The notes beneath the pieces are model-generated. The model ran no database searches, was not told the DNA's origin, and worked only from the letters and a program-made list of their open reading frames with translations. Shown here in pieces: positions 6,184 through 25,374 of a DNA stretch of 29,844 nucleotides. Origin of the DNA: a virus; the IMG/VR virus record IMGVR_UViG_3300025889_000644, positions 1 through 29,844 of that record. One strand, given 5' to 3'. A program made the translations under genes and the position numbers. The stretch's first letter is position 1, and every line of letters begins with the position of its first letter.

Positions 6184-6606
6184 TTACAATTGACATGCCG
6201 CACAATCTGGGAATATAGTTGCTACAACAAATTGTTCTGGCGCAATTGTTGGGTCTATTATTTCCCAACAATCAATATCATTACCAACCACTTTAACAAC
6301 CTCACCAGGATTTATTAAAGTACCAATTGATTTAACAACATAAGTTGGGCCGAATGGGTCATTACAATTAAATACATTATAGTAATAAACATTTGGAGAT
6401 GGACTTGGAGTTAAAGTTGGAGTGGGTGATGGAGTACTCGTGGGAGTAATTGTTGGAGTAGGTGTAATTGTGGGAGTAGGTGACGGAGTAACGGATGGAG
6501 TAGGAGTGGGGCTAGGGTCAGCCACCACTACTCTCGCATCATATATTGGATACTCCCTTCCAAAATTAGCCGTAGTCCAAACTACATTCTTTTTTACAAA
6601 TCCCAT
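6184..6606 (-). CDS. Virion decoration/fibre protein with Pro-Thr linker and Cys module (140 aa)
   Basis: It has three parts: a 30-residue N-terminal anchor; a Pro-Thr/Ser repeat linker (about 31-72, units such as TPTPT and SPTPT); and a C-terminal module with Cys81, Cys113 (DCWEI), Cys135 and Cys138 (DCAAC). The C-terminal module resembles the one at residues 323-387 of the 548-aa tail protein, including the CYEV/CWEI and DCxxC motifs. Pro-Thr linkers are extended and probably place the Cys domain away from the virion surface. Its neighbours are the YadA-like fibre and the 141-aa structural gene. The precise virion location is unknown. Confidence 0.6.
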   Translation of the reverse strand: MGFVKKNVVWTTANFGREYPIYDARVVVADPSPTPTPSVTPSPTPTITPTPTITPTSTPSPTPTLTPSPSPNVYYYNVFNCNDPFGPTYVVKSIGTLINPGEVVKVVGNDIDCWEIIDPTIAPEQFVVATIFPDCAACQL

Positions 6607-7910: not shown

Positions 7911-8879
7911 TTATAGTCCATATTTGTCTTGTATGTATGTTTCAACTTGACTAATTTCTGTTGCGTTCAAGTACCTATTGTAAAATAAGATTTCCCAAAT
8001 TGTTCCACCCATCGCTCTAAATCCAGCACTTGTATTCTCAAATATTCTATTGAAAGACTGGTTTTCAGTCCAACCAACATTAGTATAAACAGATGAGCCG
8101 TTTTGTCTTACTTGAGCGTTAGTACTATCCTTCTGCCAACAAACATATTGAGGTGTAGTTAAATCTACTCCTCCTTGATAAAATATTGACCCACTATTTG
8201 CGAATATAAATGGCCCATCACCACTAATTTGTAAACCTAAACCAGCGAATGTTCCACCACCAATAACATATTGAGGGTCGTTAGTGCTTCCACTTTGAGC
8301 GACAGCGAATATTGTATATTCATTATGGTTAGAATTACTAAAAGTCATACTTGATGTTGCTGATGGGTTATTAGTAATACCTAATAATCCGTTCAAACTA
8401 TTTGACTTGGTAAAGGTAGTTGATGAAACAGCGGTTGCGACTTTACTTGATTTTGTATCAGTCCAAGTCGTTACATATCCACCACTTTCTACAACACCAT
8501 AACTACTATCCCATAAATAAGTTAAACCACTTATACTATCTGGGTCAAATGGTATAGGAGTAGGTGTGGGCGTCGGTGTAGGACTTGGTGTAATTGTCGG
8601 TGTGGGTGTTATTGTAGCACTTGGCGTCGGTGTAGGACTTGGTGCTGGCTCAATATACCACAAGATATTTTCACCTTGAGCGGTTTGTAGAATATCACCT
8701 TGTGCTGTTAATAAATAGAAAGTTTCAACAGGAGGTGTTATATCTTCCTGTTGATTAGGCTGAATAAAAGAGCCAGTTAAATAAACTCCTCTTTGTCTTT
8801 GGTTTCCTACTTTTGTTCTGTCAACCCTTGTTATTGGTGCTACGGGTCTAAATCTTCTTCCACCCCAAGATAAACTCAT
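7911..8879 (-). CDS. Lectin-like virion protein with Pro-Thr linker (322 aa)
   Basis: Residues 1-78 form an anchor containing two similar half-units (LLTAQGDILQT and the following TAQGENILW). Residues 79-110 are a Pro-Thr linker. Residues about 112-322 look like a LamG/concanavalin-A-like sandwich: 'ISGLTYLWDSS ... YTIFAVAQSG ... WEILFYNRYLNATEISQVE ... YIQDKYGL'. The final helix and strand are typical for this fold. The same C-terminal fold occurs in the 400-aa tail completion fusion. Such domains bind sugars, so host or mucus glycan binding is likely. The linker DNA shares 22- and 26-base matches internally and with the 943-aa tail gene. Confidence 0.68.
   Translation of the reverse strand: MSLSWGGRRFRPVAPITRVDRTKVGNQRQRGVYLTGSFIQPNQQEDITPPVETFYLLTAQGDILQTAQGENILWYIEPAPSPTPTPSATITPTPTITPSPTPTPTPTPIPFDPDSISGLTYLWDSSYGVVESGGYVTTWTDTKSSKVATAVSSTTFTKSNSLNGLLGITNNPSATSSMTFSNSNHNEYTIFAVAQSGSTNDPQYVIGGGTFAGLGLQISGDGPFIFANSGSIFYQGGVDLTTPQYVCWQKDSTNAQVRQNGSSVYTNVGWTENQSFNRIFENTSAGFRAMGGTIWEILFYNRYLNATEISQVETYIQDKYGL
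8569..8648. repeat. Dispersed Pro-Thr linker DNA repeats
   Basis: Two 22-base segments, 8569-8590 and 8623-8644, are identical (core GTCGGTGTAGGACTTGGTG). The longer segment 8623-8648 also matches 16853-16878 in the 943-aa tail gene with one mismatch. The repeats encode the Pro-Thr/Ser linkers on the minus strand and could serve as sites for recombination between fibre genes. Confidence 0.85.
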
Positions 8880-10536: not shown

Positions 10537-11268
10537 TTACTTGTTTAATTTTTTCAACATTTCCAATCTATAATCACTAAATGATTGAGAATATGTTTCT
10601 TTTTTTGTGTTTATTGGTTTTTTGTCCTCACTAGCCTTAAACTCTTGATAATCATTTTTAAGAGCATCAAATGCTTGTGATTGGTTTTGGATTAAATCCA
10701 AGATTTTTTCAACTGACAATTTTAATGTTGTCAATTCGCTAGAGAAACCTTCCAACGAGCCTTCACCCGCTTCATCAGGTCTTTTAACACCTGTGATTGT
10801 TCCTTCAGCATCTACGGTGATTACAATACCACTTTCAGTTGTATGTTCGCCGGATGGTGCTTCAACTCTGTTTCCATCAGCATCAATTACATACAATTTC
10901 TTACCTACCTCAAAATCACCTTCAACCTCTATTTTTGTTCCGTCAGTTAAAGTTGCTGAAGCATACTCTTGTTCTACTACTTCACCTTCAGTCATCTCAC
11001 TAACGCCAGGGGCTTTAATTTCCAAAATGATTGAAGCCTCATCCAATAATACAATTGTTCCGTCTTCTAATTGATGTTCTTGATTTGCTGGAGCCAAAAC
11101 TAAATTTCCGTCAGCATCAACAACATAAAGGGTTTGTCCTACCTCAAACGCACCTTCAAGGTTATTTGTCACGATAGTGCCATCCATCAAATTAGCCTGT
11201 GCCATTTTGATTTCAGTTTTACCGAATAACATCTCCTTGATAAGTTTTACTGCTTGTTCTGTAGTCAT
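10537..11268 (-). CDS. Scaffold/decoration candidate with internal duplication (243 aa)
   Basis: The protein has two copies of a beta-rich unit, residues about 23-87 and 102-164. Each runs L.DGT, then FEVG..LYV(V/I)DADGN.V.AP, then E.G(I/T)(V/I). A C-terminal coiled-coil-like helix (about 172-215, SSELTTLKLSVEKILDLIQN) follows. The acidic duplicated units resemble capsid-associated proteins found just upstream of the major capsid protein in Bacteroidota phages. The coil plus basic tail (DYRLEMLKKLNK) resembles scaffold C-termini that contact the shell. Its ATG overlaps the stop of the protease gene (ATGA), linking synthesis of protease, scaffold and capsid. Whether it is scaffold, decoration or both is open. 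Confidence 0.6.
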   Translation of the reverse strand: MTTEQAVKLIKEMLFGKTEIKMAQANLMDGTIVTNNLEGAFEVGQTLYVVDADGNLVLAPANQEHQLEDGTIVLLDEASIILEIKAPGVSEMTEGEVVEQEYASATLTDGTKIEVEGDFEVGKKLYVIDADGNRVEAPSGEHTTESGIVITVDAEGTITGVKRPDEAGEGSLEGFSSELTTLKLSVEKILDLIQNQSQAFDALKNDYQEFKASEDKKPINTKKETYSQSFSDYRLEMLKKLNK

Positions 11269-13391
11269 AATTTTTTTACCTTTTTTAATATGTTTATTAT
11301 ATCGTACATTATCTGCTCGTCGCTTTTCGGTTGGTATTGTTTTTCATTACCCGCTTCCTTTGGGTCGCTCATTAAGTAATTTCCTTCAACACTCCAACCT
11401 AAAACTTTTTGCTTCTTTACATAATTATGCCAGATGTCTTTATTGTCAATTCTGTATGAAACCATCCAAGTACCAATAGGGACTTGTTCTTCAGTAAATC
11501 CTAATGAATATGCTTTGTCATTTTTGCTTTCAATTAACCAACTTTCCACTAAATAACAATCTTCAAGAGGAATACCAGAATGTTCCAAATTCGCTGATTT
11601 TGTTCTACCCTCCATCAAGAATTTTTGAGACATTCTTCTAACGGTGTCCTTATCAAAATATACATAATATCTCTCACCTGGTTTAAGCCCTTCAGTATAT
11701 TCATCCGCAATACGTACGATGAGTTTATCAGGGATTACTGCTGGGCCTGTAATTATTCTTTTTTCTTCATTTATATTGAATGATTGAGATGCTTTAACTG
11801 CCTTAAATTCCTCATTCTCCAAACAAGGAACATACGCCATACCATCTCTGTATTCAATCTGTTTCATTCTACCATTACACCCTAATTTATTAGAGGTAAT
11901 CTCTGCTGTTCCTATATCTCTAAAAATAGGTAATCCATTTGTATAAGAAATAGGTAATTCTAATTCATAAGATAATGTTGTGTGGACTGCGGGGGGATTT
12001 AATTGTCCCGACTGACCCGCTGCGGGCTGCTCAAAATCAGCCTTGTCTTCAGCCCTTCTCTTTTGATTAGGTATTCTTGTTTCATCATCTGTGAATACTA
12101 ATTGTCTCCAAATGTGATTACAATTTGCGCCATTTTTCCAGACAAACTGATTTACACTTGTTCCCTGTGGACGAGGTACTAACTTATAGGTGTCAGCATC
12201 CACATCTAATTGTTGTGATAAAATGAAAATATCTTCTACTCTATAAACCAACTGGAATTGTCCTATCATTTGTTTACACAACTTTCTACTTGTTCCCATC
12301 AACGCTGGACGACCTGGGCCTGGTGTAAAGACAAACCTTACCCTTCTACCTGGTGTATCCAACATAGAGGGGGCATTTGGATTAGATTGTATGGTATAGA
12401 ATTTCTCAAATAAACTATCACCTTTTTCTAATGCTAATTTTTTAAGTTGTTCTATAATTTCCATCGCTCTTTCTTGAGTGATTTCTTCATCCTCAATAAT
12501 AGTTAAACCTCTATCCAATAAATCCTCAATAGATACGGCAACCTCATCAACCATAGATTGTGTTCTACAATTCTCATCACAAGACATTTCCTGTTCTTTT
12601 AACAATCTCTCATACTCCTCGTGAGTTTCACAGGGAGCCCAACCATCCATCATTCTGTGTGTTCCTTTACAACCCAAAATGTAGGCTTCTTCTAATGCGT
12701 CAGCGATGTCAGGGTATTGTTGAAATTCCATTCTACCCAACAATCCAATTCTTGTTAAGAAATTATCCATATTGTATTCCACACCATCACGAGCAAAATC
12801 CCTGATGATGTCTTTAGCCATCTCTTTTCTGTTTTCTATATCATTTACCTTATTTAAGATTTCAATAATACCTTCAACCATTTCATAGTCATCTCTATCA
12901 TTAGTTTCAATAATCTCATCATTCAATAATGTTTCTTTAGACATTTCCTCTAATGATGATATTGTTCTTTCCAACCAAGACATAGCACTTTCATAGTTTG
13001 AGGGGATAAATCCCCAAGCAGCCATCATTTTATATCCGCAACCTGTCTCAAAATCCTTACTACTATCCCAATCTGCTTTGTGTCTACTACCATAAGAATA
13101 CATTCTCTTTAAGGTTTCTAATGATGCGTTATACCCAGCCGTAGCCAAGTCATTTGCTCTTTTCTTACCTACAGGTGTTCCACAATCACCCCATCCATTT
13201 TCTTCAGTATAATCAACAACTCTTTGTGCTGCCTCTCTAATGTATTCAGGGACTTGTGTAAATTTATGTTCTTGTGCCTTACGGAAATACATAAACTCTG
13301 TTGTATGAGCGGGAAACTCAACCAACGCTATTTGGAATGTTCCCAAATCATCAAACAATTCGTCCTCTATGTCTAATTTAACTATTTTCAT
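11265..13391 (-). CDS. Multidomain capsid maturation protein with XkdF-like protease (708 aa)
   Basis: The C-terminal part (about 555-680) matches the XkdF-like putative phage serine protease: His604 in NLEHSG, Ser617 in LVESWLI, then PIGTWMVSYRI and VLGWSVEG. The N-terminus (LGTFQIALVEFPAH) is typical for these proteins. Residues about 72-128 (KKRANDLA, LKRMYSYGSRHKADW, GCGYKMMAAWG) match a small module seen in capsid protease or portal-associated proteins. A middle part (about 360-480) has a GRRVRFVFTPGPGRP segment and NCNHIWRQLVF, recalling minor head proteins. It is far longer than a simple prohead protease, so it probably combines maturation with a minor head function. It lies upstream of scaffold and capsid genes. 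Confidence 0.75.
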   Translation of the reverse strand: MKIVKLDIEDELFDDLGTFQIALVEFPAHTTEFMYFRKAQEHKFTQVPEYIREAAQRVVDYTEENGWGDCGTPVGKKRANDLATAGYNASLETLKRMYSYGSRHKADWDSSKDFETGCGYKMMAAWGFIPSNYESAMSWLERTISSLEEMSKETLLNDEIIETNDRDDYEMVEGIIEILNKVNDIENRKEMAKDIIRDFARDGVEYNMDNFLTRIGLLGRMEFQQYPDIADALEEAYILGCKGTHRMMDGWAPCETHEEYERLLKEQEMSCDENCRTQSMVDEVAVSIEDLLDRGLTIIEDEEITQERAMEIIEQLKKLALEKGDSLFEKFYTIQSNPNAPSMLDTPGRRVRFVFTPGPGRPALMGTSRKLCKQMIGQFQLVYRVEDIFILSQQLDVDADTYKLVPRPQGTSVNQFVWKNGANCNHIWRQLVFTDDETRIPNQKRRAEDKADFEQPAAGQSGQLNPPAVHTTLSYELELPISYTNGLPIFRDIGTAEITSNKLGCNGRMKQIEYRDGMAYVPCLENEEFKAVKASQSFNINEEKRIITGPAVIPDKLIVRIADEYTEGLKPGERYYVYFDKDTVRRMSQKFLMEGRTKSANLEHSGIPLEDCYLVESWLIESKNDKAYSLGFTEEQVPIGTWMVSYRIDNKDIWHNYVKKQKVLGWSVEGNYLMSDPKEAGNEKQYQPKSDEQIMYDIINILKKVKKL

Positions 13392-13403: not shown

Positions 13404-16337
13404 TTAAAACTTACTCAATTGGTTTAATCTGGCATTTACCTCTTGAGATGTTGTTATGTCTCTTTCAACTACATACGCTCTTATAGGTGCCGTTCTATTA
13501 CTATTATTTAACGCCTCAATCAATCTACTATCATCATAAGGTGTTGATAAAATAGGGGCTCCACCCGTTGATTGATTTATCTGCGATAATAGTCCACGAT
13601 AAAGTTGGGTGGAATTTCTTGTGATAATTGCTTCTCCACCTTCCACATTCGCTCCATTAGATAAGGTTATACCTCCTTGAGCGTGTGATGGGCCGAATAA
13701 CAAACCTCCACGAGCAAATGTCTGTACTTGTGATATTTGTTGTTGGATTACAGCAACCTGTGCCAAACCAATCGCTGCGGTAATACCCGCAAGGATTTGT
13801 CCTATAACAGGCCCCGCTGTTAGTGCTTTGGTGATGGCATCAGCGACATTAGCAAGGGCTGATGCTTGTGTCAATCTCAATTGAGCGATTTGTCCTTTCT
13901 TTGTCAACTCCTTTCTCTTTTGTTCGTAATCCTCTTGTATCTCAATTCTCTTTTGTGCTTGTTCCTCTTCTGTTCCAACAAGATTATCCAACGCCTTTTG
14001 TTCTGCTTGGTCTAATGCCTCAAGTTGTACTTCAATATATTGACGGAATACCTCAACACCTGTTCTGGCAACCTCACCAATCTGTCTTAAATTTTCAGCA
14101 AGTGATTGAGCGATTTCAGTATAAGTTGTTTTAGTTTCTTCACCTTCCTCATCTCTTTTTTGTCTTGCGTATTCATAATACGCATCCAATAATTGTTTCT
14201 TTTGTTCTGTAGATAATGATAGATAATCTATACCTAAATTGGCATAAAAACTCTCAACAGCAAAAGCATTTTTTTCTAATCTTTCTTTGTCATTAAAGTA
14301 TCTCTTATCTAAATCAACTCTTAATCCTAAAGAATAAACATACTCTGCCAATCTATCTCTATTATTGAGAACAAATGCCTTTTTTGCTTCACTATCTAAT
14401 GCGGTTATTTCATTTTGTAATTCCAAACCTGTGGCAAAGAAACCTCTTACCTCATTTTCTACTTTTACAATCGCTTCAGCCCCCTTGAAAAGATTTGTCA
14501 CGGCTGCTTCAGCAATTTTACCAGCATCCTCTGCCTTTACTCCACTATCTATTAAAGATTGTGTATATTTTTCAGTAACGGTTTTTACGAATATATCTAA
14601 ATTAGCCTGTGCTTTACTAAATTCAGTTGTGAATTGTCTTGGTACTGCCTCCAAGTTTCCACCAACCTCTTTAACCGCAGCACCTAATTTACCTTGTGCT
14701 CCCAAGAATGTTGTCAACACCCTATCAAAAGTTTCAATATTAAAGAATTTACGTAATGGGGGGTCTGTTTCTTCTAATTGTTTAGCGAATATTCTATAGT
14801 TTTCCACAACAGCCAAACCAGCATTTACTGCTTCTTGGGTGATTTTCTTATCTCTAAATAATCTATAAAAAGTATCTTCAGCATTTTTAGCGAATTGTTC
14901 TATATCTGTCTCCCCTCTCAATAAAGCACGGGGGATTTCTCTAATAGATTTGATAAAGGCAACACCAAATTCATCAGTTGTCTCTACAGCCGTCTTAAAT
15001 GTGTCATTAAACTCCTCAATAATACTTTTTGGAAATGCTGTTTTTATTTGCTCTTCTAATTCTGCTAATCTATCTCTCAATTTTTGTATGAATTCAGGTT
15101 CTGGAGCACTTGCTGTAATAAATTCTTTAAGTTTAGATAATTCCTCAACCTGTTTCTTATATGCTTCTGCTAATGCGTCGTTTACCTCTTGAGCGGTTTT
15201 AAGGGATTTAGCATTCCTTTCAATTCTACTTGTGTAATCACTAACTTTAGGTAATGTTGCTCTTAAAGCATCCTCATATTGTTTGGTAAATTTGTTTAAG
15301 ATTTCTTGATTTTCAGCACCTTCTTTTAACTTATTATTTATACCCGTTTCAAGATTACGCTGAAAGCGAGCAATTGGATTGTTTAATGATAAAATGGTAT
15401 TACCTAAATCCTCCCAAAATGATACATAATCTTCAAGGGGTTTATTACTATTCTCAAGGATTTCCTGTTGTTTTTTGATTACAAGTTGTCTTAAACTTTC
15501 AGCCTTGGTTTGTGCTACGATTAGTTGAATATTATCCTCAATTGCTTGGTTGATAATATCCAACGCATCTGCTCTGTCTAAATCTAATCCTTCTAATTCA
15601 GGTAATAATTTTACCAATTCATCTAATGCCTGTTTCCTTGTCTTTTCACTTTCTGCTGTGTCATTTACAACTTTCTGTAATGCTCTTAAAGGAACAATAC
15701 TTTCCTGTGCTTTTTTATCTCCTTCAGCAATTGCGGTATTTAATTCCTCTTGTGCTACTGCTGCTTTATCAACATCTTGACTAAATGCATAGGCTGCTGC
15801 CGCTGCCGCTGCTAATACCGTCACCAACGCTCCAATAGGATTTGAGGCAATAACGGTAAAGAGTGTTCTCATAGCCGTTGTGGTTGCTGCTGTCGCTAGT
15901 GTCTGTGCTTTTTGAGCGATGGTGGTTGCCACAATCTTTATCTGTAGGGATGCTTCAGCAATTTGTCTTGCTCCTAATGCTACGGTGATAAGTTGTTGTG
16001 CTTTTAATTGGGCTTCTGCTACATCCTCACTCTCAACACCAAATGCTGATAGGGCTGTAGTTGCCACAGCAAACGCTCCAACAATACCTTCACCCAATTT
16101 AACAAAACCTTCTGCCTTTTGTTGAGGCTCTAAACCTTCAATTTCTTTATTGATAGTTTTTAATTGACTTTCTGCCCCTTGTATATCTCGTGCTAATGTA
16201 TTAAATGGCTCACTACCAACTTGGAGGGTTTTTAATTCCTTCTTTGCTGATTGTAATGCTACTTCCAAATCCTCTATTGAGGCGATGGATGTATCTACAC
16301 CATTTATTTTAAGAGTAATATTTAACAAACCTGCCAT
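13404..16337 (-). CDS. Tail tape measure protein (977 aa)
   Basis: This is the second longest gene and has the features of a tape measure: a coiled-coil N-terminus (EVALQSAKKELKTLQ, EAQLKAQQLI), a hydrophobic Ala-rich segment near 160-190 (VIASNPIGALVTVLAAAAAAAY), and long charged helices. A second Gly/Ala segment follows (PVIGQILAGITAAIGLAQVAV), then the characteristic C-terminal 'FARGGLLFGPSHAQGGI ... VEGGEAIITRNST' motif. The protein fills the tail tube, sets tail length and is probably injected. By the usual rule of about 0.15 nm per residue the tail would be roughly 150 nm. It lies after the two distal-tail genes rather than before them. Confidence 0.9.
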   Translation of the reverse strand: MAGLLNITLKINGVDTSIASIEDLEVALQSAKKELKTLQVGSEPFNTLARDIQGAESQLKTINKEIEGLEPQQKAEGFVKLGEGIVGAFAVATTALSAFGVESEDVAEAQLKAQQLITVALGARQIAEASLQIKIVATTIAQKAQTLATAATTTAMRTLFTVIASNPIGALVTVLAAAAAAAYAFSQDVDKAAVAQEELNTAIAEGDKKAQESIVPLRALQKVVNDTAESEKTRKQALDELVKLLPELEGLDLDRADALDIINQAIEDNIQLIVAQTKAESLRQLVIKKQQEILENSNKPLEDYVSFWEDLGNTILSLNNPIARFQRNLETGINNKLKEGAENQEILNKFTKQYEDALRATLPKVSDYTSRIERNAKSLKTAQEVNDALAEAYKKQVEELSKLKEFITASAPEPEFIQKLRDRLAELEEQIKTAFPKSIIEEFNDTFKTAVETTDEFGVAFIKSIREIPRALLRGETDIEQFAKNAEDTFYRLFRDKKITQEAVNAGLAVVENYRIFAKQLEETDPPLRKFFNIETFDRVLTTFLGAQGKLGAAVKEVGGNLEAVPRQFTTEFSKAQANLDIFVKTVTEKYTQSLIDSGVKAEDAGKIAEAAVTNLFKGAEAIVKVENEVRGFFATGLELQNEITALDSEAKKAFVLNNRDRLAEYVYSLGLRVDLDKRYFNDKERLEKNAFAVESFYANLGIDYLSLSTEQKKQLLDAYYEYARQKRDEEGEETKTTYTEIAQSLAENLRQIGEVARTGVEVFRQYIEVQLEALDQAEQKALDNLVGTEEEQAQKRIEIQEDYEQKRKELTKKGQIAQLRLTQASALANVADAITKALTAGPVIGQILAGITAAIGLAQVAVIQQQISQVQTFARGGLLFGPSHAQGGITLSNGANVEGGEAIITRNSTQLYRGLLSQINQSTGGAPILSTPYDDSRLIEALNNSNRTAPIRAYVVERDITTSQEVNARLNQLSKF

Positions 16338-16371: not shown

Positions 16372-19203
16372 TCAACAACTAACCCCTTTTACAATACTAC
16401 CTGTTCCATAAACAATTGCTACACTATTCTCACAAGCACATACATAGACATACTCACCAGGGTCTAACACTTGATTGGTTGTTGATAAACAATTTCCACA
16501 AGGTGAATAATCAAATGACAACTGACTTTCAATACTCAAGTTTTGTACTTCATAACTGAAACAAGGCCCTGAATATTGAGACGGAGTAGGAGTGGGGGTG
16601 GGATTATTTGTAGGGGTCGGTGTTGGACTTGCTGGAACACAACCACCTAATAATGCTACAACCACACTACCACCTGTTGAGGTAATAGGTGTTCCTTCAC
16701 ACTTACAGATGTAATCTGTTTGTCCTGCTCCTATTGTATTATTATGATAAAGTCCATTACAATCTGTATATTGGTAATTCACCAAATATGGATTTTCATT
16801 TTCAACACTCCACTCCTCACATACACATAATCCTGGTGTAGGGGTGGGCGTAGGCGTCGGCGTAGGACTTGGTGCTGGTGGGGTTGTTCCTGGCTGAATG
16901 GAATAATCAGGGGTTGGTAAATCAATAGAGTTAAATCCACCCAACTCCTTCACCAATATAACATCATTAAAGTCCTTTTTAATGAGGTTTCCATCCTTTA
17001 TTTCTTGTAGACGATAGTTTGTATCTTTTACAAAAATAATGTCATTAAAACTCAATTCTCCAATATCCTGTGGGTCTAATACAAACTTACCTTCCAACTT
17101 TCTTGCCTCACTTGAGTAGAGTTGGTTAATGTATTGTGATTGAAACGCATCAAATATCGTATAATTGGAATATAGATTGATATTACTATTTTGACTAGCA
17201 AAGTAATCCCAATATCTATCAAAATTTAAGTCAGCAAAAGTATTACTATTACCTGATGTCAATTTACTCAAATGTGAAATACAAGGATAAGTGGTTTGTG
17301 CCACGGTTGTATTACCACTCTGTAAATACCAATTGAATGTGGTGGTTTGTTCTTGGTCTACATAGTTGTATCTATTACCCACCCAAAATACCAATTTTGG
17401 TGTTTTAAGTTTTGTGGGGATAAACTGGTTTGTATCATCCAATTCATAAAATAATGGAATAATAAAATCCTCACTACCATCTATGTTTTTTGTAGGAACA
17501 GGGGCAAATGGAAATTCTATTGTCTCATCCCCTTTTAAGATATTAGATGATGATGAATAATATTTTGTTCCAAATATAGTATTAAAGGTTGTTTCTTGAT
17601 ATTTGTTTAACGCTTCATCATCACCACTTTGATAGGTATATATCACATCTTTCCTTAAGTCAAAATCTAATGTGGATACTTTCCAACTTTGGTCTAATGA
17701 TAATTTCTGCGTCCAATCTCTAACCAATCTGTCTGGTTGATTGTAATAATCATCATAGGGGATAAACTCAATTGTCTTATTTACGTCATCCTCAATTACC
17801 AATAGGTTAAACATATTGATTACAGATTTTAATAACTCAACACAACTTATATCCGGTAATTGTGTCTGTATATCCACATCATAAGATGGTAATGATGCTG
17901 GTGAGGCATATAAGTCAAATCTTACCAAACTACCAGCACTTTGATTAAATCCTCTAATTTCCACAATATCATTTACGATGAGTGGTGATGGTAATGTGTT
18001 GAATACTGGAACAACATAAACACCAGACGCTAAAGTTAGATTACATAATACATTCTCACTTTTCCAAGTATTACCTGCTTCACCATTATAGGTATAAGCA
18101 ATATTACCGCTTGAGAATACATTTAGAGTTGCTCCCGTCCATATCTCAATACTAAATTCTTGTTTTAATAATGCTGGAATATGTTTCTTATGTGAGAATT
18201 GTAGGTTAAATCCATACACACCTGGAAATGGGGTTTGGAAACCATTACGTAAAGTTGAATTTATATCTCCACTAATGGTTTTATTGGCAGCGATAAAATT
18301 TGTTCTGGTGTAATTATTTAAGTGGTCGTATCCATCACTTCCAAAAGTACAAAATGGTAATATTGTTCTATCTGTTAAACTACCCCTGTCTATGTCAAAA
18401 CTACCACAAGTATAAACCTTAAAATAATTTTGATTTTCAACCACCTCTGGTGTTCCAATACCATACTCACCATTATTGGATAATGTCATATAGATGGAAC
18501 GGAAATAAGGAGTGTCAAAGAAATCACTAATAACGGTATAGGTAGAGGCAGAGAATACTCTGTCTATTACCTCTTTTAATCGTATCTGTGGTTTCCAATA
18601 ACTTTCAGGGATAGGACATAAAGCACTTGTAAAAGTATTTGTTCCTGATAAAGAAAATGTAAATGTAGGGGTACTACCTGTATTATAGATATATCCATTA
18701 TTACTCATACCATAGAGTATCTTACCACCAAATAAACCAGCAGTATCACCTGTGGTTGCTTTCCAACTCTCAACAATATTGTCATAAGTTTGTTGATGGT
18801 ATAAATCACCCCATAATAAGTCAGTTAAAGACAATCCATCTATCTCACCCACAAAATCTCCAATATCACTTACAATATACACCTCAAACTCTTGGTAATC
18901 CCCTGTGTTGATTACAGAGTTTAATCGTAATGTTCCTCTAAAGATGTCATTACCATAATTTTGGATTACACAATTCCTTCTTGTCAAGGGGTCAAAATCA
19001 ATACCATTTACATCATAAAAAGAATTGAATACTTCCTTATTGTGTTTTGTTCCTGGTACGGTAAATGTATTGGAAAAACCAGCATTTCTTTCTTGTAGAT
19101 TTGTAATTGAATTGATAGATAAATTAGCCGTTACTGGTATTTCTTCATACAAATCAATTGAGTAATATTTGCCGTCTATTTCTAATAATAATTGACTATC
19201 CAT
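16372..19203 (-). CDS. Distal tail / minor tail protein with two C-terminal Cys modules (943 aa)
   Basis: The N-terminus (LLLEIDGKYYSIDLYEEIPVT ... FSNTFTVPGTKHNKEVFNSF) matches the large tail-tip or baseplate protein common in Bacteroidota siphophages, in which a Tal-like core is built around a 'P-x-T-x-x-N' motif. The C-terminal 170 residues hold a Pro-Thr linker, a Cys module (about 795-855), a second Pro-Thr linker and another Cys module (about 881-943). The two modules align (Y-x-x-C-x-x, then G-x-x-x-Y-(I/V)-C-x-C, then a final G-x-C). They are probably surface-exposed and may contact the host. Its ATG shares one base with the preceding stop (TAATG), which suggests coupled translation. 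Confidence 0.72.
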   Translation of the reverse strand: MDSQLLLEIDGKYYSIDLYEEIPVTANLSINSITNLQERNAGFSNTFTVPGTKHNKEVFNSFYDVNGIDFDPLTRRNCVIQNYGNDIFRGTLRLNSVINTGDYQEFEVYIVSDIGDFVGEIDGLSLTDLLWGDLYHQQTYDNIVESWKATTGDTAGLFGGKILYGMSNNGYIYNTGSTPTFTFSLSGTNTFTSALCPIPESYWKPQIRLKEVIDRVFSASTYTVISDFFDTPYFRSIYMTLSNNGEYGIGTPEVVENQNYFKVYTCGSFDIDRGSLTDRTILPFCTFGSDGYDHLNNYTRTNFIAANKTISGDINSTLRNGFQTPFPGVYGFNLQFSHKKHIPALLKQEFSIEIWTGATLNVFSSGNIAYTYNGEAGNTWKSENVLCNLTLASGVYVVPVFNTLPSPLIVNDIVEIRGFNQSAGSLVRFDLYASPASLPSYDVDIQTQLPDISCVELLKSVINMFNLLVIEDDVNKTIEFIPYDDYYNQPDRLVRDWTQKLSLDQSWKVSTLDFDLRKDVIYTYQSGDDEALNKYQETTFNTIFGTKYYSSSSNILKGDETIEFPFAPVPTKNIDGSEDFIIPLFYELDDTNQFIPTKLKTPKLVFWVGNRYNYVDQEQTTTFNWYLQSGNTTVAQTTYPCISHLSKLTSGNSNTFADLNFDRYWDYFASQNSNINLYSNYTIFDAFQSQYINQLYSSEARKLEGKFVLDPQDIGELSFNDIIFVKDTNYRLQEIKDGNLIKKDFNDVILVKELGGFNSIDLPTPDYSIQPGTTPPAPSPTPTPTPTPTPGLCVCEEWSVENENPYLVNYQYTDCNGLYHNNTIGAGQTDYICKCEGTPITSTGGSVVVALLGGCVPASPTPTPTNNPTPTPTPSQYSGPCFSYEVQNLSIESQLSFDYSPCGNCLSTTNQVLDPGEYVYVCACENSVAIVYGTGSIVKGVSC
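16853..16878. repeat. Pro-Thr linker DNA repeat shared with the lectin-protein gene
   Basis: This 26-base segment differs at one position from 8623-8648. Both encode the same linker-anchor peptide on the minus strand. The match lies in unrelated genes 8 kb apart and suggests exchange or a common source for linker modules. Confidence 0.82.
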
Positions 19204-20849
19204 TATCTATTCATTTTTAGGTTATTAGCATATTGGTATGATAATTCCAAATTCACAATATTTCTATTACCTCTATTTTTTCTAACAAAATCAGTTGTCG
19301 TCACAACAACAGGATTTAGTGTTCCATCATCTTCTATAATATAAACCTGTGGTGAGGTATATAAACCTTCCAAGAATTGAAAATCAGGGAAATTGATAAA
19401 ACCTGTATTTACCACGTGTGTTTCCGTTAAAGACACATTAAACACATCTGTTCCCCTTGATGAATTTAGATGGACTGGTGGGTTTAATAATGAAGCATCA
19501 CCCCAATTGATGTTATAGTGTTGATATTGTTGTCTGTCTATCTTTACACCCTCACTCTTACCTTTTAAGAAACGATAATAATCAAAAGTACCATATCTAT
19601 TCAACCAAACAAATTGGAGTTGATTAAATCTCAAACATTCATCATCAATCTCAAAACTGAATGTCTCACTCACCGCTGATAATGACGGACAAGTAGGTGT
19701 CTCACCACTTAAACAATCAGCACAATCTGTATAAGGGGATATACCATTTACACTCCAACTACTTGACTGGTCTCCCACACCACCAATAGACAATACCTCA
19801 TAACAATATCCATCTACTGCCACGGTTGTCCCTAATGGTAAACCATCTAAAATACAAGCACAAAACTCCTCCAAGTCATCACACCTTCTCATAGTACCAG
19901 GTGAATATCCACTAGCACATGCTGGCTCACCACAATTTTGACTATTAGGGGGAACAGGTCTCGTCACTTCACCACCCATCATCGTCACTTGATAATAAGT
20001 GGTTGCTGATGGAATAATGTTCTGTATGTTTTTAGGGCCTACACCCACATTTAAGATGTTCCAATCTACAGCATCTACAGCCGCATAAATCATCATCTGT
20101 TCTGTATCCGTACAACCACTCCAAGGCCCTCCACCATTTGAGTAGATGTTGTCTATGGTAGTTGCTGATATGTATGTTCCCGTATTATCAAACCATTCAT
20201 ATTTGACTGCTCTTGGTAATGATTTGTATGTATCACTTGAATACCAATTATAGTTGGCAAAAGATAAGGTGTAGTAATCATCACTTCTAACCGTCCTAAT
20301 TCTTGGACTATCAGTTAAAAATAAATCACTACTATTTCTCATTATATAAGGGGTAAAATCAAAATCTTCATTTCTATAAAGGAAATTGTTTACCATCGTT
20401 CCATTATACACCCTTGATACATCACTACTAAATGATGGTTGTCCTGGAGTATCTGTATAACCATTATAGATTACCACCTGTCCCGTTGGTGTCGTGGCAT
20501 ATTCCTCACCTACCAACACATACAAACTCCTTACTTGTGGGTATTGGTAGTCAGTTGATTGTATTGAGAATTTCTCTGTTGTCTGTATATCAAAAGTGGT
20601 GGAGTGGTCTGTTGATTTGATACTACTCTCAACATACGCATCCACAATATTAGACACATCAAATACCCCAATACCATTTGGGTTAGGGGTTGTCTTACCT
20701 GTATAGATTTTAACCCCATTTATATAAACATCCCACACATATCTAAATTTGTATTGAGATGTCTTATTACTCGTACAGGCATAAAATAAACCATTTGTAT
20801 AAACTGGTTGTGCCTTCTGTGGATTTACAAATACGCTTCCTATTGCCAT
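19203..20849 (-). CDS. Distal tail protein with Cys-rich insertion (548 aa)
   Basis: The N-terminal part (PQKAQPVYTNGLFYACTS, then FRYVWDVYINGVKIYTGKT) and the C-terminal WLNRYGTFDYYRFLKGKSEG segment are typical of a tail protein found beside tail-tip genes in Bacteroidota siphophages. I infer a distal-tail (Dit-like) role. An inserted Cys-rich module (about 323-387: Cys323, 330, 332, 349 in CYEV, 376 and 379 in DCADC, 387) resembles the C-terminal module of the 140-aa virion protein. Start and stop overlap with both neighbours at TAATG (20849 and 19203), giving a tightly coupled tail operon. Confidence 0.68.
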   Translation of the reverse strand: MAIGSVFVNPQKAQPVYTNGLFYACTSNKTSQYKFRYVWDVYINGVKIYTGKTTPNPNGIGVFDVSNIVDAYVESSIKSTDHSTTFDIQTTEKFSIQSTDYQYPQVRSLYVLVGEEYATTPTGQVVIYNGYTDTPGQPSFSSDVSRVYNGTMVNNFLYRNEDFDFTPYIMRNSSDLFLTDSPRIRTVRSDDYYTLSFANYNWYSSDTYKSLPRAVKYEWFDNTGTYISATTIDNIYSNGGGPWSGCTDTEQMMIYAAVDAVDWNILNVGVGPKNIQNIIPSATTYYQVTMMGGEVTRPVPPNSQNCGEPACASGYSPGTMRRCDDLEEFCACILDGLPLGTTVAVDGYCYEVLSIGGVGDQSSSWSVNGISPYTDCADCLSGETPTCPSLSAVSETFSFEIDDECLRFNQLQFVWLNRYGTFDYYRFLKGKSEGVKIDRQQYQHYNINWGDASLLNPPVHLNSSRGTDVFNVSLTETHVVNTGFINFPDFQFLEGLYTSPQVYIIEDDGTLNPVVVTTTDFVRKNRGNRNIVNLELSYQYANNLKMNR

Positions 20850-21388
20850 TATTGTTCTTGATTAAAATTATATATTATTTGGTCGAAAATCTCCTCAACA
20901 TCATTTATTGCTTCTCTTTCTAAAATAGGTAATACCCTATTCAACATTATATCCTCACTCCTTGTGATAAACTTATTACCTTTAATACCTTTTTTCTTGA
21001 TACTATTCATCGTAGCATAAGTCAGTTGTTCTTGTGTCAAACCAGGGGCTGTGATGTGTCTGGCTTGAAGCCAAGCAGAGATTACAGAAAATGGAGGTGC
21101 TTTTCTAAATGGGCCTCTACTACCCTTATCAACAAAATATGCTGCTGTTTCATTTCTTGCCCCCTTGAAATAAATCTCAACAACCTCAATATCACCTCTT
21201 TCAATTACTCTATAATTTACACTATCAATCAGTTGTCCCGTTGCCCTTTTGTTATGAGGGGCACCAGTTTGGTTTTTAGCCTGTCCGTAATAACCTGCTG
21301 GGTAGTATGTCCTACTTTCCAACACATCTTGGACTACCTTTACCATTACTCGTCCAACTAAATCTAATGTATCTCTTGAGAATGCCAT
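20849..21388 (-). CDS. HK97 gp10-like neck/tail protein (179 aa)
   Basis: The order of a short N-terminal helix, RATGQLIDSVNYRV, EIYFKGARNETAAYFVDKGSRG, KAPPFSVISAWLQARHI and a final helical region matches the HK97 gp10 family. These proteins sit at the head-tail joint or tail top and are required for stable tails. The usual 'Y-A-x-(Y/F)-x-(E/D)-x-G' strand appears as AAYFVDKGSRG. The ATG at 21388 overlaps the preceding TAA (TAATG), which fits the pattern of the neighbouring genes better than the upstream TTG at 21397. It follows the tail completion gene, as is common. Confidence 0.82.
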   Translation of the reverse strand: MAFSRDTLDLVGRVMVKVVQDVLESRTYYPAGYYGQAKNQTGAPHNKRATGQLIDSVNYRVIERGDIEVVEIYFKGARNETAAYFVDKGSRGPFRKAPPFSVISAWLQARHITAPGLTQEQLTYATMNSIKKKGIKGNKFITRSEDIMLNRVLPILEREAINDVEEIFDQIIYNFNQEQ

Positions 21389-22590
21389 TATACCCAATAT
21401 TGATATTGATATTTATTTTTCAAGTATTGTACTATTCCATTATATTCTGTATCAGTCAATTTTCTATCATAGATAAGTGCTTCACAGATGTTTATATCAC
21501 CACTTCCACCTGACTGAAAATCCCCTAATGTGATATAATCAAATTGAGTGGTTAATGTTGAAACACCAGATGAGGTTAAATCTTCATAATTATCAACACC
21601 ATACATATACATTTCCATATCACTTGTATTTCCTTCTTGTAATGCGGTGCTAATAAAGGCATTATTATTTGGGTCAATACCACCACCACTAACATTTACT
21701 TGATAATTTTGTCCTCTAACAAAATTAGATGTTGTAATTCTATAATTTACTATACTATAACTTTGTAATAAACCTATTGTTCCAAAAGTATTACCACTTG
21801 ATATGGTAAATATTGGACGGATATTATCTGTTGTTTCATAATCACTAACTATAAACATCGTAAATCCATCAGGGAATGATGCTGCTGATGATATATTATG
21901 TTGTAATCCAGTTAAATTAGTATCATACATAGAATAATAACCACTCAAATTACCACTTGTCATAGCAGAATATTTTGGTGGTGTATTAAATGGTGTTAAA
22001 GTATAATCATTACCAGATTTGTCTAATAATTGTGTGATGTCTGTTCCACCTGTTAAAGTAATGGTTGAAGTATCTTGTAAATCATACCAAGCAAATAATC
22101 CATCAATTTGTAATGGGTTATATTCTACTGGCACCAAGAAACTTTGACATACATTCAAGGGGTCTAATGATGTTAGGGTAATATCCAAAGCAACACCCCC
22201 CACATTATCCATAAACCTCTCTATGAAACTTGTTGATGTGATGGGTAGGTCTACATCAAAATATTCTTGTAAACCTCCTAATTTAATCTCACCAATCAAA
22301 TCCTTGGCAATCATACTCATATTGGAAATGGCATCCACTCTATTTTTTTCATCCTCGCTCAATCTATCCGCAATAATGATAGATAATGAATATTGTGTCT
22401 GTTGTTCGTCATAAGTTATGGTTTGGGGGACAACAAATAAAACAGGGTATAGTAATGTTCTATCCTCAATATCTTTTCCATACTCCAATAGATTACCAAA
22501 TCCAAAGGCGTTTAAGTCAATATGTCTGTAGGTAAAGTCCTCTAATAATTTGATGACTTTATGAAATGGTATATATTCTTCAGTAATCAT
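21388..22590 (-). CDS. Tail completion/terminator protein fused to a lectin-like domain (400 aa)
   Basis: Residues 1 to about 150 have the size and pattern of a tail completion or terminator protein: an N-terminal helix followed by LYPVLFVVPQTITYDEQQTQ and SIIIADRL strands, a helix, and a closing strand pair. Residues about 160-400 form a separate LamG/concanavalin-A-like domain (IDGLFAWYDLQD, FTMFIVSDYE, ICEALIYDRKLTDTEYNGI, YLKNKYQ), the same fold as in the 322-aa virion protein. The fusion would place up to a hexamer of carbohydrate-binding domains around the head-tail joint. It lies between the frameshifted chaperone and the gp10-like gene, in keeping with the tail role of its N-terminus. 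Confidence 0.72.
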   Translation of the reverse strand: MITEEYIPFHKVIKLLEDFTYRHIDLNAFGFGNLLEYGKDIEDRTLLYPVLFVVPQTITYDEQQTQYSLSIIIADRLSEDEKNRVDAISNMSMIAKDLIGEIKLGGLQEYFDVDLPITSTSFIERFMDNVGGVALDITLTSLDPLNVCQSFLVPVEYNPLQIDGLFAWYDLQDTSTITLTGGTDITQLLDKSGNDYTLTPFNTPPKYSAMTSGNLSGYYSMYDTNLTGLQHNISSAASFPDGFTMFIVSDYETTDNIRPIFTISSGNTFGTIGLLQSYSIVNYRITTSNFVRGQNYQVNVSGGGIDPNNNAFISTALQEGNTSDMEMYMYGVDNYEDLTSSGVSTLTTQFDYITLGDFQSGGSGDINICEALIYDRKLTDTEYNGIVQYLKNKYQYQYWV

Positions 22591-22593
22591 ATT

Positions 22594-23399
22594 TTATCTT
22601 TTTCTTTTTAATTTTTCTAATTCTTTTTTCTCCCTTTCATATATATCTTTGGCATCAGCCAGGAAATTATTACACAGGGTTAGGGGTAGTTTTAATATAT
22701 ATTCTAATTTTGATACATCTCTATTAGATAATGTCATTAGGTTATTCCAATAGTATCTACCCGTTACTTGAATTGGAGTGTCAACCACTTCTTCAATTTC
22801 CTCAATCTCTGTTTCACGATATTCTTCTTCATCGTCATCTTCTGTTGTTGTTCCAAAGAGTTTTGAGTAATTTCTAAAAATGTTTTGGCGTGAAGCAAAA
22901 AAAAAGTGGAAACACCAAACCAGTATTCTATGGGTAAATCTTGAAATTCTATTTTTCTTATTTTCATGCTCTCCCCATCATACTCCTCAATCTTGTATTG
23001 ACTACCCATAGTCCATTCTAATGGACGGTATAGGATTGCCATTATGGTGTCAATATTCTTGTCAATACCTTCAGCAATTGCCATCTCCAAATCAATCCAA
23101 CCCCCATAGTTGATTTCATTTATATTTTTCTCCATACCATATTTCTTACCATTAAACTCAAAAGTGGCTTGTACCTTATTCTTATCATAATTGAGATATT
23201 GTGATTGAATAAATGATAAGATAAATTGTATGTTTTTCTTATTAGCCTTTCTAATGGTTTTTTCAGGAATGTCCGTATAGGCATTTAATAATTTAATAGG
23301 GTCTTTAATCATCTTCTCCAGTTTTACCAAATCCATATATTTTTTAATGGTTAGGTATTCAGGGATTTCATAGGTTATATTTTCAACTTGTAATTCCAT
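22594..23399 (-). CDS. Tail assembly chaperone with programmed -1 frameshift (211-aa G form, 268-aa GT form)
   Basis: The unshifted frame (22764-23399, 211 aa) has features of tail assembly chaperones in Bacteroidota phages: an N-terminal YLTIKKYMDL helix, an AILYRPLEW motif and a WFGVSTFF segment near the slip site. At codons 166-167 the RNA reads T TTT TTT (22905-22899) within nine T residues. A -1 slip there opens a stop-free frame with an acidic linker (TEDDDEEE) that continues into the 64-aa tail ending at 22594 (YYWNNLMTL ... LEKLKRKR). The fusion would be 268 aa. This matches the lambda G/GT arrangement, in which the shifted form recruits the tape measure. The 0-frame tail beyond the slip is lysine-rich and looks like non-conserved sequence. 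Confidence 0.85.
22899..22905 (-). promoter_or_regulatory. -1 ribosomal frameshift slippery site
   Basis: In the gene's reading frame the heptamer is T_TTT_TTT, a perfect X_XXY_YYZ site, inside a nine-T run (22897-22905). Both tRNAs can re-pair fully after slipping back one base. The resulting frame is open for 101 codons. An assembly error in the homopolymer is the alternative; a tenth T would fuse the frames. Confidence 0.8.
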
Positions 23400-24557
23400 T
23401 TACACTAATGTTATTTTTGAGTTTGTTTCTCTTTTTATTACTGATTGTACTCCATACCTTACACTATCCCAAAAGTGATTGTATTTGTCGTGGGGTATTG
23501 GTAGTATCTTTCCATCTTTATCTTTTTTATATTTGTAATTCTGTGCCTCAAATAATGCGTTGCTGTCCCCTTTACAGATAAATAGTTTGTGTCTCTTTAA
23601 CAAATCTATCCCATACATAATGGTTTCCTTCTTTACTGGTTTGATGTTGTAACCAGCATACCTTATTTCCTTGATGGCAGAGGGGAGAGCACTATCCGCC
23701 CAAATGTCTTGTAGTTTTTCTACTTTCTCTTTTTCCATAAGATATATCAATTCACTAATGGTGATATTAGAAGTATAAATGATTTCCTTAAAATATAACT
23801 CATTATCTCTCCTCCATATTCCCGCTAGTGATGTACTGTCCGTAAAACCGAAATCTAAACCATAACACAAAAACCTGGCACCTTCAGGGATGTCCTCATA
23901 TTCATTTATGGTTGGGAATATCAGGGTTTCCTCTCTACCCCTTTCTCCAAGTCCGTAAATCCTCCACAAATTCTCATCTGTTTCTTTGAGTTTTAGAATT
24001 TCATTTATTACCTCTTGAGACAAATATGGATTATCTCTAAATGTGGATTTAATCACATTCACATCATCCCTTTCTTCCATATCATAAATCCAACCAGAAA
24101 ATTGTGATGGGTTATATGCGAAAATAATGGATGCTGGCTCCTCACCTTCTGTTCTCAATAGTAATTGGACTATCTCATCATATCCAACCTCGTTACACTC
24201 ATCCACTATTAAATAATCTCTCTTACGTCCCCTTACCTTCATTTCTTGGTCTAATGAGAAATACTCTATTGTGTTTGTTCCAAATTTGATAATCCCTTCA
24301 CTCTTGTTATGTAGTGTGGGGTCGTATATCTCCATCTCCTCCATAATGGTAATTAAATCACGCAGGATGGACGATTTCAACGCAGGTAATGTATCTCTAC
24401 ATATTGACAGAGTTTTGTTGTCCTGCGTCAATAAACGGACTAATGAGAATTGAAGCATACTATATGTCTTTGAGGAACGAGTACCTCCAACAAGGGATAC
24501 AATCCTTTTGTCATTTTCCCATAGTTTCTCAAATACTGGTGTTGCTTTAATTTTCAT
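23400..24557 (-). CDS. terL: Terminase large subunit (385 aa)
   Basis: This is the DNA packaging motor and headful or end nuclease. Walker A is GGTRSSKT (24-31) and Walker B is LIVDE (116-120), followed by an FAYNPS coupling segment near 146-151. The RNase-H-like nuclease domain shows three aspartates in the expected places: Asp235 (GLDFG), Asp288 (WADSA) and Asp364 (FWDSVRYG). Its length is normal to slightly short. It overlaps the homing endonuclease gene upstream by 11 bases and ends next to the tail chaperone start. The small subunit is upstream but separated by a methyltransferase and the endonuclease. Confidence 0.95.
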   Translation of the reverse strand: MKIKATPVFEKLWENDKRIVSLVGGTRSSKTYSMLQFSLVRLLTQDNKTLSICRDTLPALKSSILRDLITIMEEMEIYDPTLHNKSEGIIKFGTNTIEYFSLDQEMKVRGRKRDYLIVDECNEVGYDEIVQLLLRTEGEEPASIIFAYNPSQFSGWIYDMEERDDVNVIKSTFRDNPYLSQEVINEILKLKETDENLWRIYGLGERGREETLIFPTINEYEDIPEGARFLCYGLDFGFTDSTSLAGIWRRDNELYFKEIIYTSNITISELIYLMEKEKVEKLQDIWADSALPSAIKEIRYAGYNIKPVKKETIMYGIDLLKRHKLFICKGDSNALFEAQNYKYKKDKDGKILPIPHDKYNHFWDSVRYGVQSVIKRETNSKITLV

Positions 24558-25374
24558 CTACTAGTTTCCATTTATATCCAGCAGCAGTTGGTCTGTGTTT
24601 AACTCCACGACAAACGGCACTAATATTTCCGTGTGAAATATTTAATGCTTCTGCTGCTTCTTTTATACTATCCCATACTTTAATAATATTATTTTGTTTA
24701 TCCATTTGGATTACTTTTTTTTGTTTAGCCTTTGATGCTGCCTCAATAAACTTTTTTTTATGTTCTTCCGTTAAGGAAATACCTTTGCGTGATGGTGGTT
24801 TATTACCATTTCTAATATTCGCTAAAGATAAATTTTTTCTATGTTCCTCACTAAAGATAATACCCTTTCTATTTTTACTTATTTTTTTTCTTGTTTCATC
24901 ACTCAAAACTTTACCTTTATTTGCTTCACTTACTTTTTTATTTCTTTCCTCTTTTTGTTCTTTAGTCATCGTAGACCATTGAGATTTACTAATCTTACTC
25001 AACTTTTTTCTTGTTTCTTTACTAACATTATAGGAATTATTCTTTCTACGAGTTGAGACAATCTTATCTTTAGTTTCTTTACTAACAACAACACCAACAG
25101 CCCCATCACCACCATCAGTCATATTAGCGAGAATACCAGTTTTATTGTTTATTCTACCATATTGTTTGATGTATTGTTTTTCTAATTCGCAAGCGTTTTC
25201 CCAAGATAGATTTTTATGGATTATCTCAATAGTATAATTAGTTTTACTAACTATTTTGTTCCATATACTATTACGTCTATCTGGTTTATTTTCATATGCT
25301 CTTTTGAGTTTACCAATACCCACATAAAAAATTTCATTATTGTCTTTGCGTCTATGAAAATATATTACAGCCAT
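24547..25374 (-). CDS. GIY-YIG homing endonuclease with NUMOD repeats (275 aa)
   Basis: The N-terminal domain (VIYFHRRKDNNEIFYVGIGK, then a conserved RRNSIWNKI and ENACELEKQYIKQYGR) is a GIY-YIG nuclease. The middle holds about five NUMOD3-like DNA-binding repeats of the form S-x-E-T/H-x-K-K-I/L-S (for example SKETRKKLS, SDETRKKIS, SEEHRKNLS, TEEHKKKF). The end is a NUMOD1-like helix-turn-helix (VWDSIKEAAEALNISHGNIS). It is a free-standing selfish nuclease inserted between the methyltransferase and the large terminase. Its stop overlaps the terL ATG by 11 bases, so the insertion has preserved or rebuilt the terL start. Likely target: an intron-free or related terL-region site in competing phages; that is inference. 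Confidence 0.88.
   Translation of the reverse strand: MAVIYFHRRKDNNEIFYVGIGKLKRAYENKPDRRNSIWNKIVSKTNYTIEIIHKNLSWENACELEKQYIKQYGRINNKTGILANMTDGGDGAVGVVVSKETKDKIVSTRRKNNSYNVSKETRKKLSKISKSQWSTMTKEQKEERNKKVSEANKGKVLSDETRKKISKNRKGIIFSEEHRKNLSLANIRNGNKPPSRKGISLTEEHKKKFIEAASKAKQKKVIQMDKQNNIIKVWDSIKEAAEALNISHGNISAVCRGVKHRPTAAGYKWKLVDEN

Follow-up and report, generated by a model that had tools for sequence, protein, structure and literature searches.

A large phage family of the Flavobacteriaceae and related Bacteroidota may make a G/GT-like pair of tail-assembly proteins by slippage of RNA polymerase on an obligatory run of at least nine T, and not by ribosomal frameshifting. The gene that related phages encode as a single ORF would be, in this family, a gene with two products. 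We give this joint reading a probability of about 0.4. It was developed on a window of 29,844 bases (the whole stretch of DNA analysed, IMG/VR virus record IMGVR_UViG_3300025889_000644) and on relatives of one of its genes. In the proposed scheme, one gene yields two proteins with a common N-terminal domain. Normal reading would give a short product, consisting of the N domain and a tail of 44 aa in the window and of about 55 aa in most relatives. The T run would divert part of the expression into the -1 frame, giving a long product with N domain, linker and C domain.

The frame-switch gene and its relatives

The gene is located on the minus strand of the window and consists of the following elements.

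23399-22764, minus strand: 0-frame ORF of 211 aa, with the N domain (codons 1-167) and a 44-aa 0-frame tail; putative short, G-like product
22897..22905, minus strand: T9 slip run (A9 on the plus strand); codons 165-168 are ACT TTT TTT TTG
22594..22899, minus strand: -1-frame segment of the fusion, 101 aa and stop; acidic linker and C domain
22594-22788, minus strand: 64-aa ORF, as it would be annotated; its sole start is GTG

The original prediction had placed a T_TTT_TTT heptamer in phase at codons 165-167, and the codons at the junction agree with this. Inspection of the ORFs likewise bore out that the -1 frame is open from 5' of T9 through to the stop at 22594, which results in a predicted 268-aa fusion, the long GT-like product, and that the 64-aa tail has no start of its own other than GTG. 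The ATG of the 211-aa ORF stands immediately 3' of the terL stop codon.

The 211-aa protein belongs to PHROG 32199, whose function is annotated as unknown. It matched only gene 38 of Nonlabens phage P12024S and its twin in P12024L, with 28% identity over half its length. When the 211-aa protein of the window was itself scanned against viral contigs, nothing matched, and the family was reached only via this weak match to P12024S. In P12024S, too, the gene follows terL, T9 is present and the -1 frame enters the next annotated gene, 39. Genes 38 and 39 (PHROG 32199 and 38404), annotated as two unrelated hypothetical proteins, thus share the slot after terL, the T9 run and the -1 relation with the window. 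They differ from it by an N domain that is only 28% identical and by the lack of an acidic linker.

Relatives were gathered from viral contigs and genome bins, seeded by P12024S and by profile alignments, and an N-domain profile and a C-domain profile were run on the translated frames of each locus. This yielded 262 distinct sequences, which fell into 85 clusters when grouped at 80% protein identity and into 34 at 60%. The C domain was in the -1 frame in 261 of them, the remaining one being cut by the contig end. An unbroken run of at least nine T was present at the junction in all 262, with nine T in 239, ten in 22, twelve in one, and seven or eight in none. Some of the search patterns spanned both Phe codons but permitted TTC, so that the run was not forced; others were placed elsewhere in the protein. 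One DNA pattern covered only sequence from the final T of the run onwards in the 3' direction; the 70 genuine junction loci reached by it all had exactly T9, and its two further matches were unrelated sequence. T_TTT_TTT was in phase in the junction codons of all clusters. The search for relatives with a conserved slippery heptamer, suggested along with the original prediction, therefore had a positive outcome in every member. Relatives in which the 64-aa tail is never linked to the chaperone frame, which were to speak against a fusion, were not seen, and no relative had the single fused frame that would be expected if T10 made a simple single gene. In one large cluster (L042, L047-L065 and similar loci), many sequences also have an in-frame A7 run about 100 bases upstream of T9.

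Sequencing is prone to errors in homopolymers, and replication slips on them; the true or an alternative sequence might have T10 and encode one simple gene. However, none of the 262 distinct sequences was fused-frame, and they stem from numerous projects independent of one another, with the isolate genomes of P12024S and P12024L among them. We rejected sequencing error on the ground of these concordant sequences. As a general explanation, a T10 reading, be it by error or by phase variation at the DNA level, is refuted by the sequence comparison, and we consider it extremely improbable.

Further evidence for the fusion came from more distant phages. A structure search tied the N domain to a protein of Flavobacterium phage 6H, and from there homologues were found in Flavobacterium, Cellulophaga, Polaribacter and Microcystis phages. 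These proteins (PHROG 25418; Duneviridae, Helgolandviridae and Microcystis phages) are encoded by single unbroken ORFs of 259-306 aa. In profile comparisons they aligned with the whole fusion (probability 99.2%, E 2e-19), and the -1-frame C domain alone matched their C-terminal part (92.6%, E 4.5e-7). The 0-frame tail gave no match with them (E 0.67), and a reversed control on the first, smaller homologue set gave nothing. They are hence homologous across the whole fusion but, unlike the window gene, are one ORF and need no frame switch; the longest T run in their genes is 5-7, and T9 is absent. Judged from their sequences, the single-ORF genes are a natural control, with the protein in one frame and the T9 run missing. 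Since distant homologues encode both domains as one ORF without T9, we infer that the fusion is a real protein, and we regard the frame switch that produces it as practically certain. These related phages would make the fusion constitutively, and the short form is therefore not required everywhere. Flavobacterium phage 6H itself was considered as a second type of frame break and rejected. Its homologue (L154 10352-10927) is annotated as a truncated ORF of 191 aa, whereas near-identical phages have an intact ORF of 293 aa, and the truncation probably reflects a mistake in that phage's record.

Judging by the reading frames after the run, the short form probably exists too. The 0 frame 3' of the run stayed open for a median of 55 codons across clusters. 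In most clusters this exceeded the expectation from shuffling the codons of the frame that overlaps it; for the window tail, 0.3% of shuffles reached the observed length. The +1 frame closed after a median of 2 codons and the -1 frame after a median of 83. In 62 of the 85 clusters the -1 frame had no start codon, of whatever kind, among its first 40 codons, so that separate initiation cannot generally yield the C domain. Codon changes in the overlap, compared for the window and the three relatives closest to it, were too few to be informative.

Polymerase slippage and ribosomal shifting

We lean towards RNA-polymerase slippage as the main mechanism, because the run length is conserved, runs of at least nine T are avoided elsewhere and no conserved RNA structure was found. 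The host RNA polymerase would slip on the T run and add one U. An mRNA with U9 would then code for the short form and one with U10 for the fusion, while U8 would lead to a stop after a few codons.

The run occurred in each of the three codon phases, its length was kept, and the codons on either side compensated. Where the codons up to the end of the earliest heptamer contributed nine T, the next codon started with C or G in 3 of 9 clusters. Where they contributed eight, it started with T in 78 of 78 (p 8e-4, kinship ignored) and encoded Tyr, Trp, Leu, Phe, Cys or Ser. Where they contributed seven, as in the window, it started with TT in 3 of 3, compared with 7 of 78 (p 1.4e-3, kinship ignored). 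These compensation tests ignore shared ancestry; at 60% clustering the p values were 0.005 and 0.04. The other genes of these phages, 557 kb of coding sequence, contained 0 runs of at least nine T as compared to 7.2 expected from synonymous shuffling, and 14 runs of at least nine A as compared to 49 expected. Avoidance of such runs serves as a signature for inferring slippage-prone transcription, and nine nucleotides are a common slippage threshold in bacterial genomes (PMC1088944).

The same two products could be obtained by programmed -1 ribosomal frameshifting at T_TTT_TTT, which is the established route for G/GT in lambda and in many tailed phages (PMC5009743). Every member has this heptamer in phase, and ribosomal slippage may be favored by long U runs. 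For a ribosomal shift, however, seven T would suffice, yet none of the 262 sequences had seven or eight, no alternative heptamer was used, and the flanking codons held the total at nine T or more. Downstream RNA structure is common at programmed -1 ribosomal frameshifts, although not required. Conserved structure, either as an upstream hairpin or as a downstream stem, was sought in 36 clusters, and the mean folding z was near 0. In synthetic tests in E. coli, U_UUU_UUU was moreover much less shift-prone than A_AAA_AAG (PMC5009743). We therefore consider ribosomal shifting rather unlikely; a mixture of polymerase slippage and ribosomal shifting is possible. Protein data cannot separate the two mechanisms, as both routes give the same protein sequence, ...TFFFASRQ.... 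Of the programmed -1 frameshift predicted for the window, the conserved frame transition that fuses a -1-frame C domain to the N domain was confirmed. A conserved run of at least nine T in any phase fits transcriptional slippage better than a ribosomal T_TTT_TTT site.

Polymerase slippage would bring the gene close to Thermus dnaX, IS elements and other bacterial slippage genes with A9 or T9, which likewise have a homopolymer of about 9 nt of conserved length and two products. As in these systems, such runs are avoided in other coding sequence. The slippage cases named in two papers (PMC5009743, PMC1088944) come from cellular genes, IS elements, secretion systems and RNA viruses, with no phage tail chaperone among them. 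Our literature search, which covered a collection of open-access papers, likewise turned up no phage tail chaperone made by transcriptional slippage.

Gene order and a role in tail assembly

The frame-switch gene is surrounded by genes of the head and tail modules.

23400..24557, minus strand: terL, large terminase subunit (Pfam Terminase_3, 1e-24; PHROG terL), directly upstream
21388..22590, minus strand: 400-aa gene, directly downstream; its N-terminal part is in the slot of P12024S gene 41 (synteny, tblastn of relatives)
20849..21397, minus strand: neck / tail completion protein, HK97 gp10-like (PHROG 5, E 3e-4)
13404..16337, minus strand: tape measure protein (PHROG tail length tape measure, 2e-10), fifth gene after the frame-switch gene

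The position directly after terL and five genes ahead of the tape measure was correctly described before. Calling the pair displaced holds only relative to lambda, since the slot after terL is family-wide in this phage group. The window and P12024S share the order terL, frame-switch gene, gene-41 slot, neck protein, large tail genes and tape measure. Among the 262 relatives, terL was found upstream in 233, with a gap sometimes up to about 1 kb, and gene 41 matched just downstream in most (220 matches). As this order is shared by the window, P12024S and the relatives, the slot after terL is the family's normal place. A chaperone gene just before the tape measure is typical, though not strictly defining. 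Cellulophaga phage Ingeline has its single-ORF homologue three genes ahead of the tape measure.

Several neighbouring genes showed features of their own. The 400-aa gene matches PHROGs of unknown function. As compared to the 138 aa of P12024S gene 41, it has an extra C-terminal part that matches PHROGs 11772 and 4390 and resembles an added binding domain. Between terL and a DNA methyltransferase gene, a 275-aa ORF (24547-25374, minus strand) that overlaps the terL start looks by eye like a GIY-YIG homing endonuclease. A 708-aa protein (11265-13391, minus strand) has a C-terminal Peptidase_S78_2 (XkdF-like) protease domain and a long N-terminal part without assigned function. Long Pro-Thr/Ser repeat linkers (PTPTPTP) occur in several tail-region proteins (6184-6606, 7911-8879 and 16372-19203, minus strand).

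By its architecture and gene context, the pair would work like lambda G/GT: the short form would coat the tape measure, and the rarer fusion would bring in tail-tube subunits. The window family resembles lambda in its overlapping ORFs with a -1 switch close to where the first ORF ends, in its location within the tail-gene region and, as predicted, in a short and a long product with a common N domain. They also differ in several respects. A sequence relation is undetectable, lambda has a short heptamer where the window family has at least nine T, the gene of the window family follows terL and precedes the tape measure by several genes, and phages related to this family encode the fusion as one ORF. 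Our analysis makes a G/GT-like tail-chaperone function probable. Taken as a whole, an explanation in which two products arise by polymerase slippage and work like lambda G/GT has about even chances.

Searches for known families and folds gave little direct indication of function. The pair had no chaperone match in Pfam or PHROG, the Pfam matches being at chance level only, and PDB profile searches likewise returned chance matches. The N domain was modelled well by AlphaFold (pLDDT 82), but its model found nothing significant in the PDB with Foldseek. HK97 gp13 (2ob9) matched its fold weakly over residues 1-69 (Z 2.5), and one viral model named tail assembly chaperone gave a weak structure match (E 0.09). 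The model of the C domain was too poor to search (pLDDT 64). The pair could have a real frame switch and be some other protein of the head or tail module, such as a connector or an assembly factor that acts close to the terminase and neck genes. Such a role would agree with a gene that adjoins terL, or follows portal and adaptor, rather than preceding the tape measure, with homologues that are constitutive single ORFs, and with PHROGs of unknown function and no clear fold match. A two-product frame-switch architecture, on the other hand, is typical of tail chaperones, and no other chaperone candidate was found beside the tape measure of the window. The similarity to HK97 gp13 and to the viral chaperone model, weak as it is, points in the same direction, and we consider a non-chaperone role rather unlikely. 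Genes 47-48 of P12024S, just before its tape measure, were examined as a rival chaperone pair and dismissed, as no frame-switch layout was seen in them. The proposal of a G/GT-type tail assembly chaperone for the window was accordingly upheld as to its two-product architecture, but it found no sequence family match and only a marginal fold match.

Distribution and significance

The only isolated phages found with this arrangement, P12024S and P12024L, infect Nonlabens. The member contigs were drawn from numerous environmental samples as well as from metagenome bins, the names of which were Winogradskyella, Bacteroidetes and, in one case, Epsilonproteobacteria. A search of about 395 Bacteroidota genomes detected no prophage copy outside the metagenome bins that had served as starting points, which suggests a lytic lifestyle of the member phages.

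In conclusion, the comparison joins PHROG 32199 and 38404 with PHROG 25418, both 'hypothetical' up to now, into one protein family, the members of which gene callers currently list as unrelated ORFs. A run of at least nine T, rather than the heptamer, as the conserved signal makes transcriptional slippage the leading hypothesis, a possibility absent from the original prediction and open to a simple test by transcript sequencing. Frame switching in tail chaperones has so far been described as ribosomal. If it is the run length and not the codon phase that is conserved, these phages would reach the same two-protein outcome by a different molecular route.
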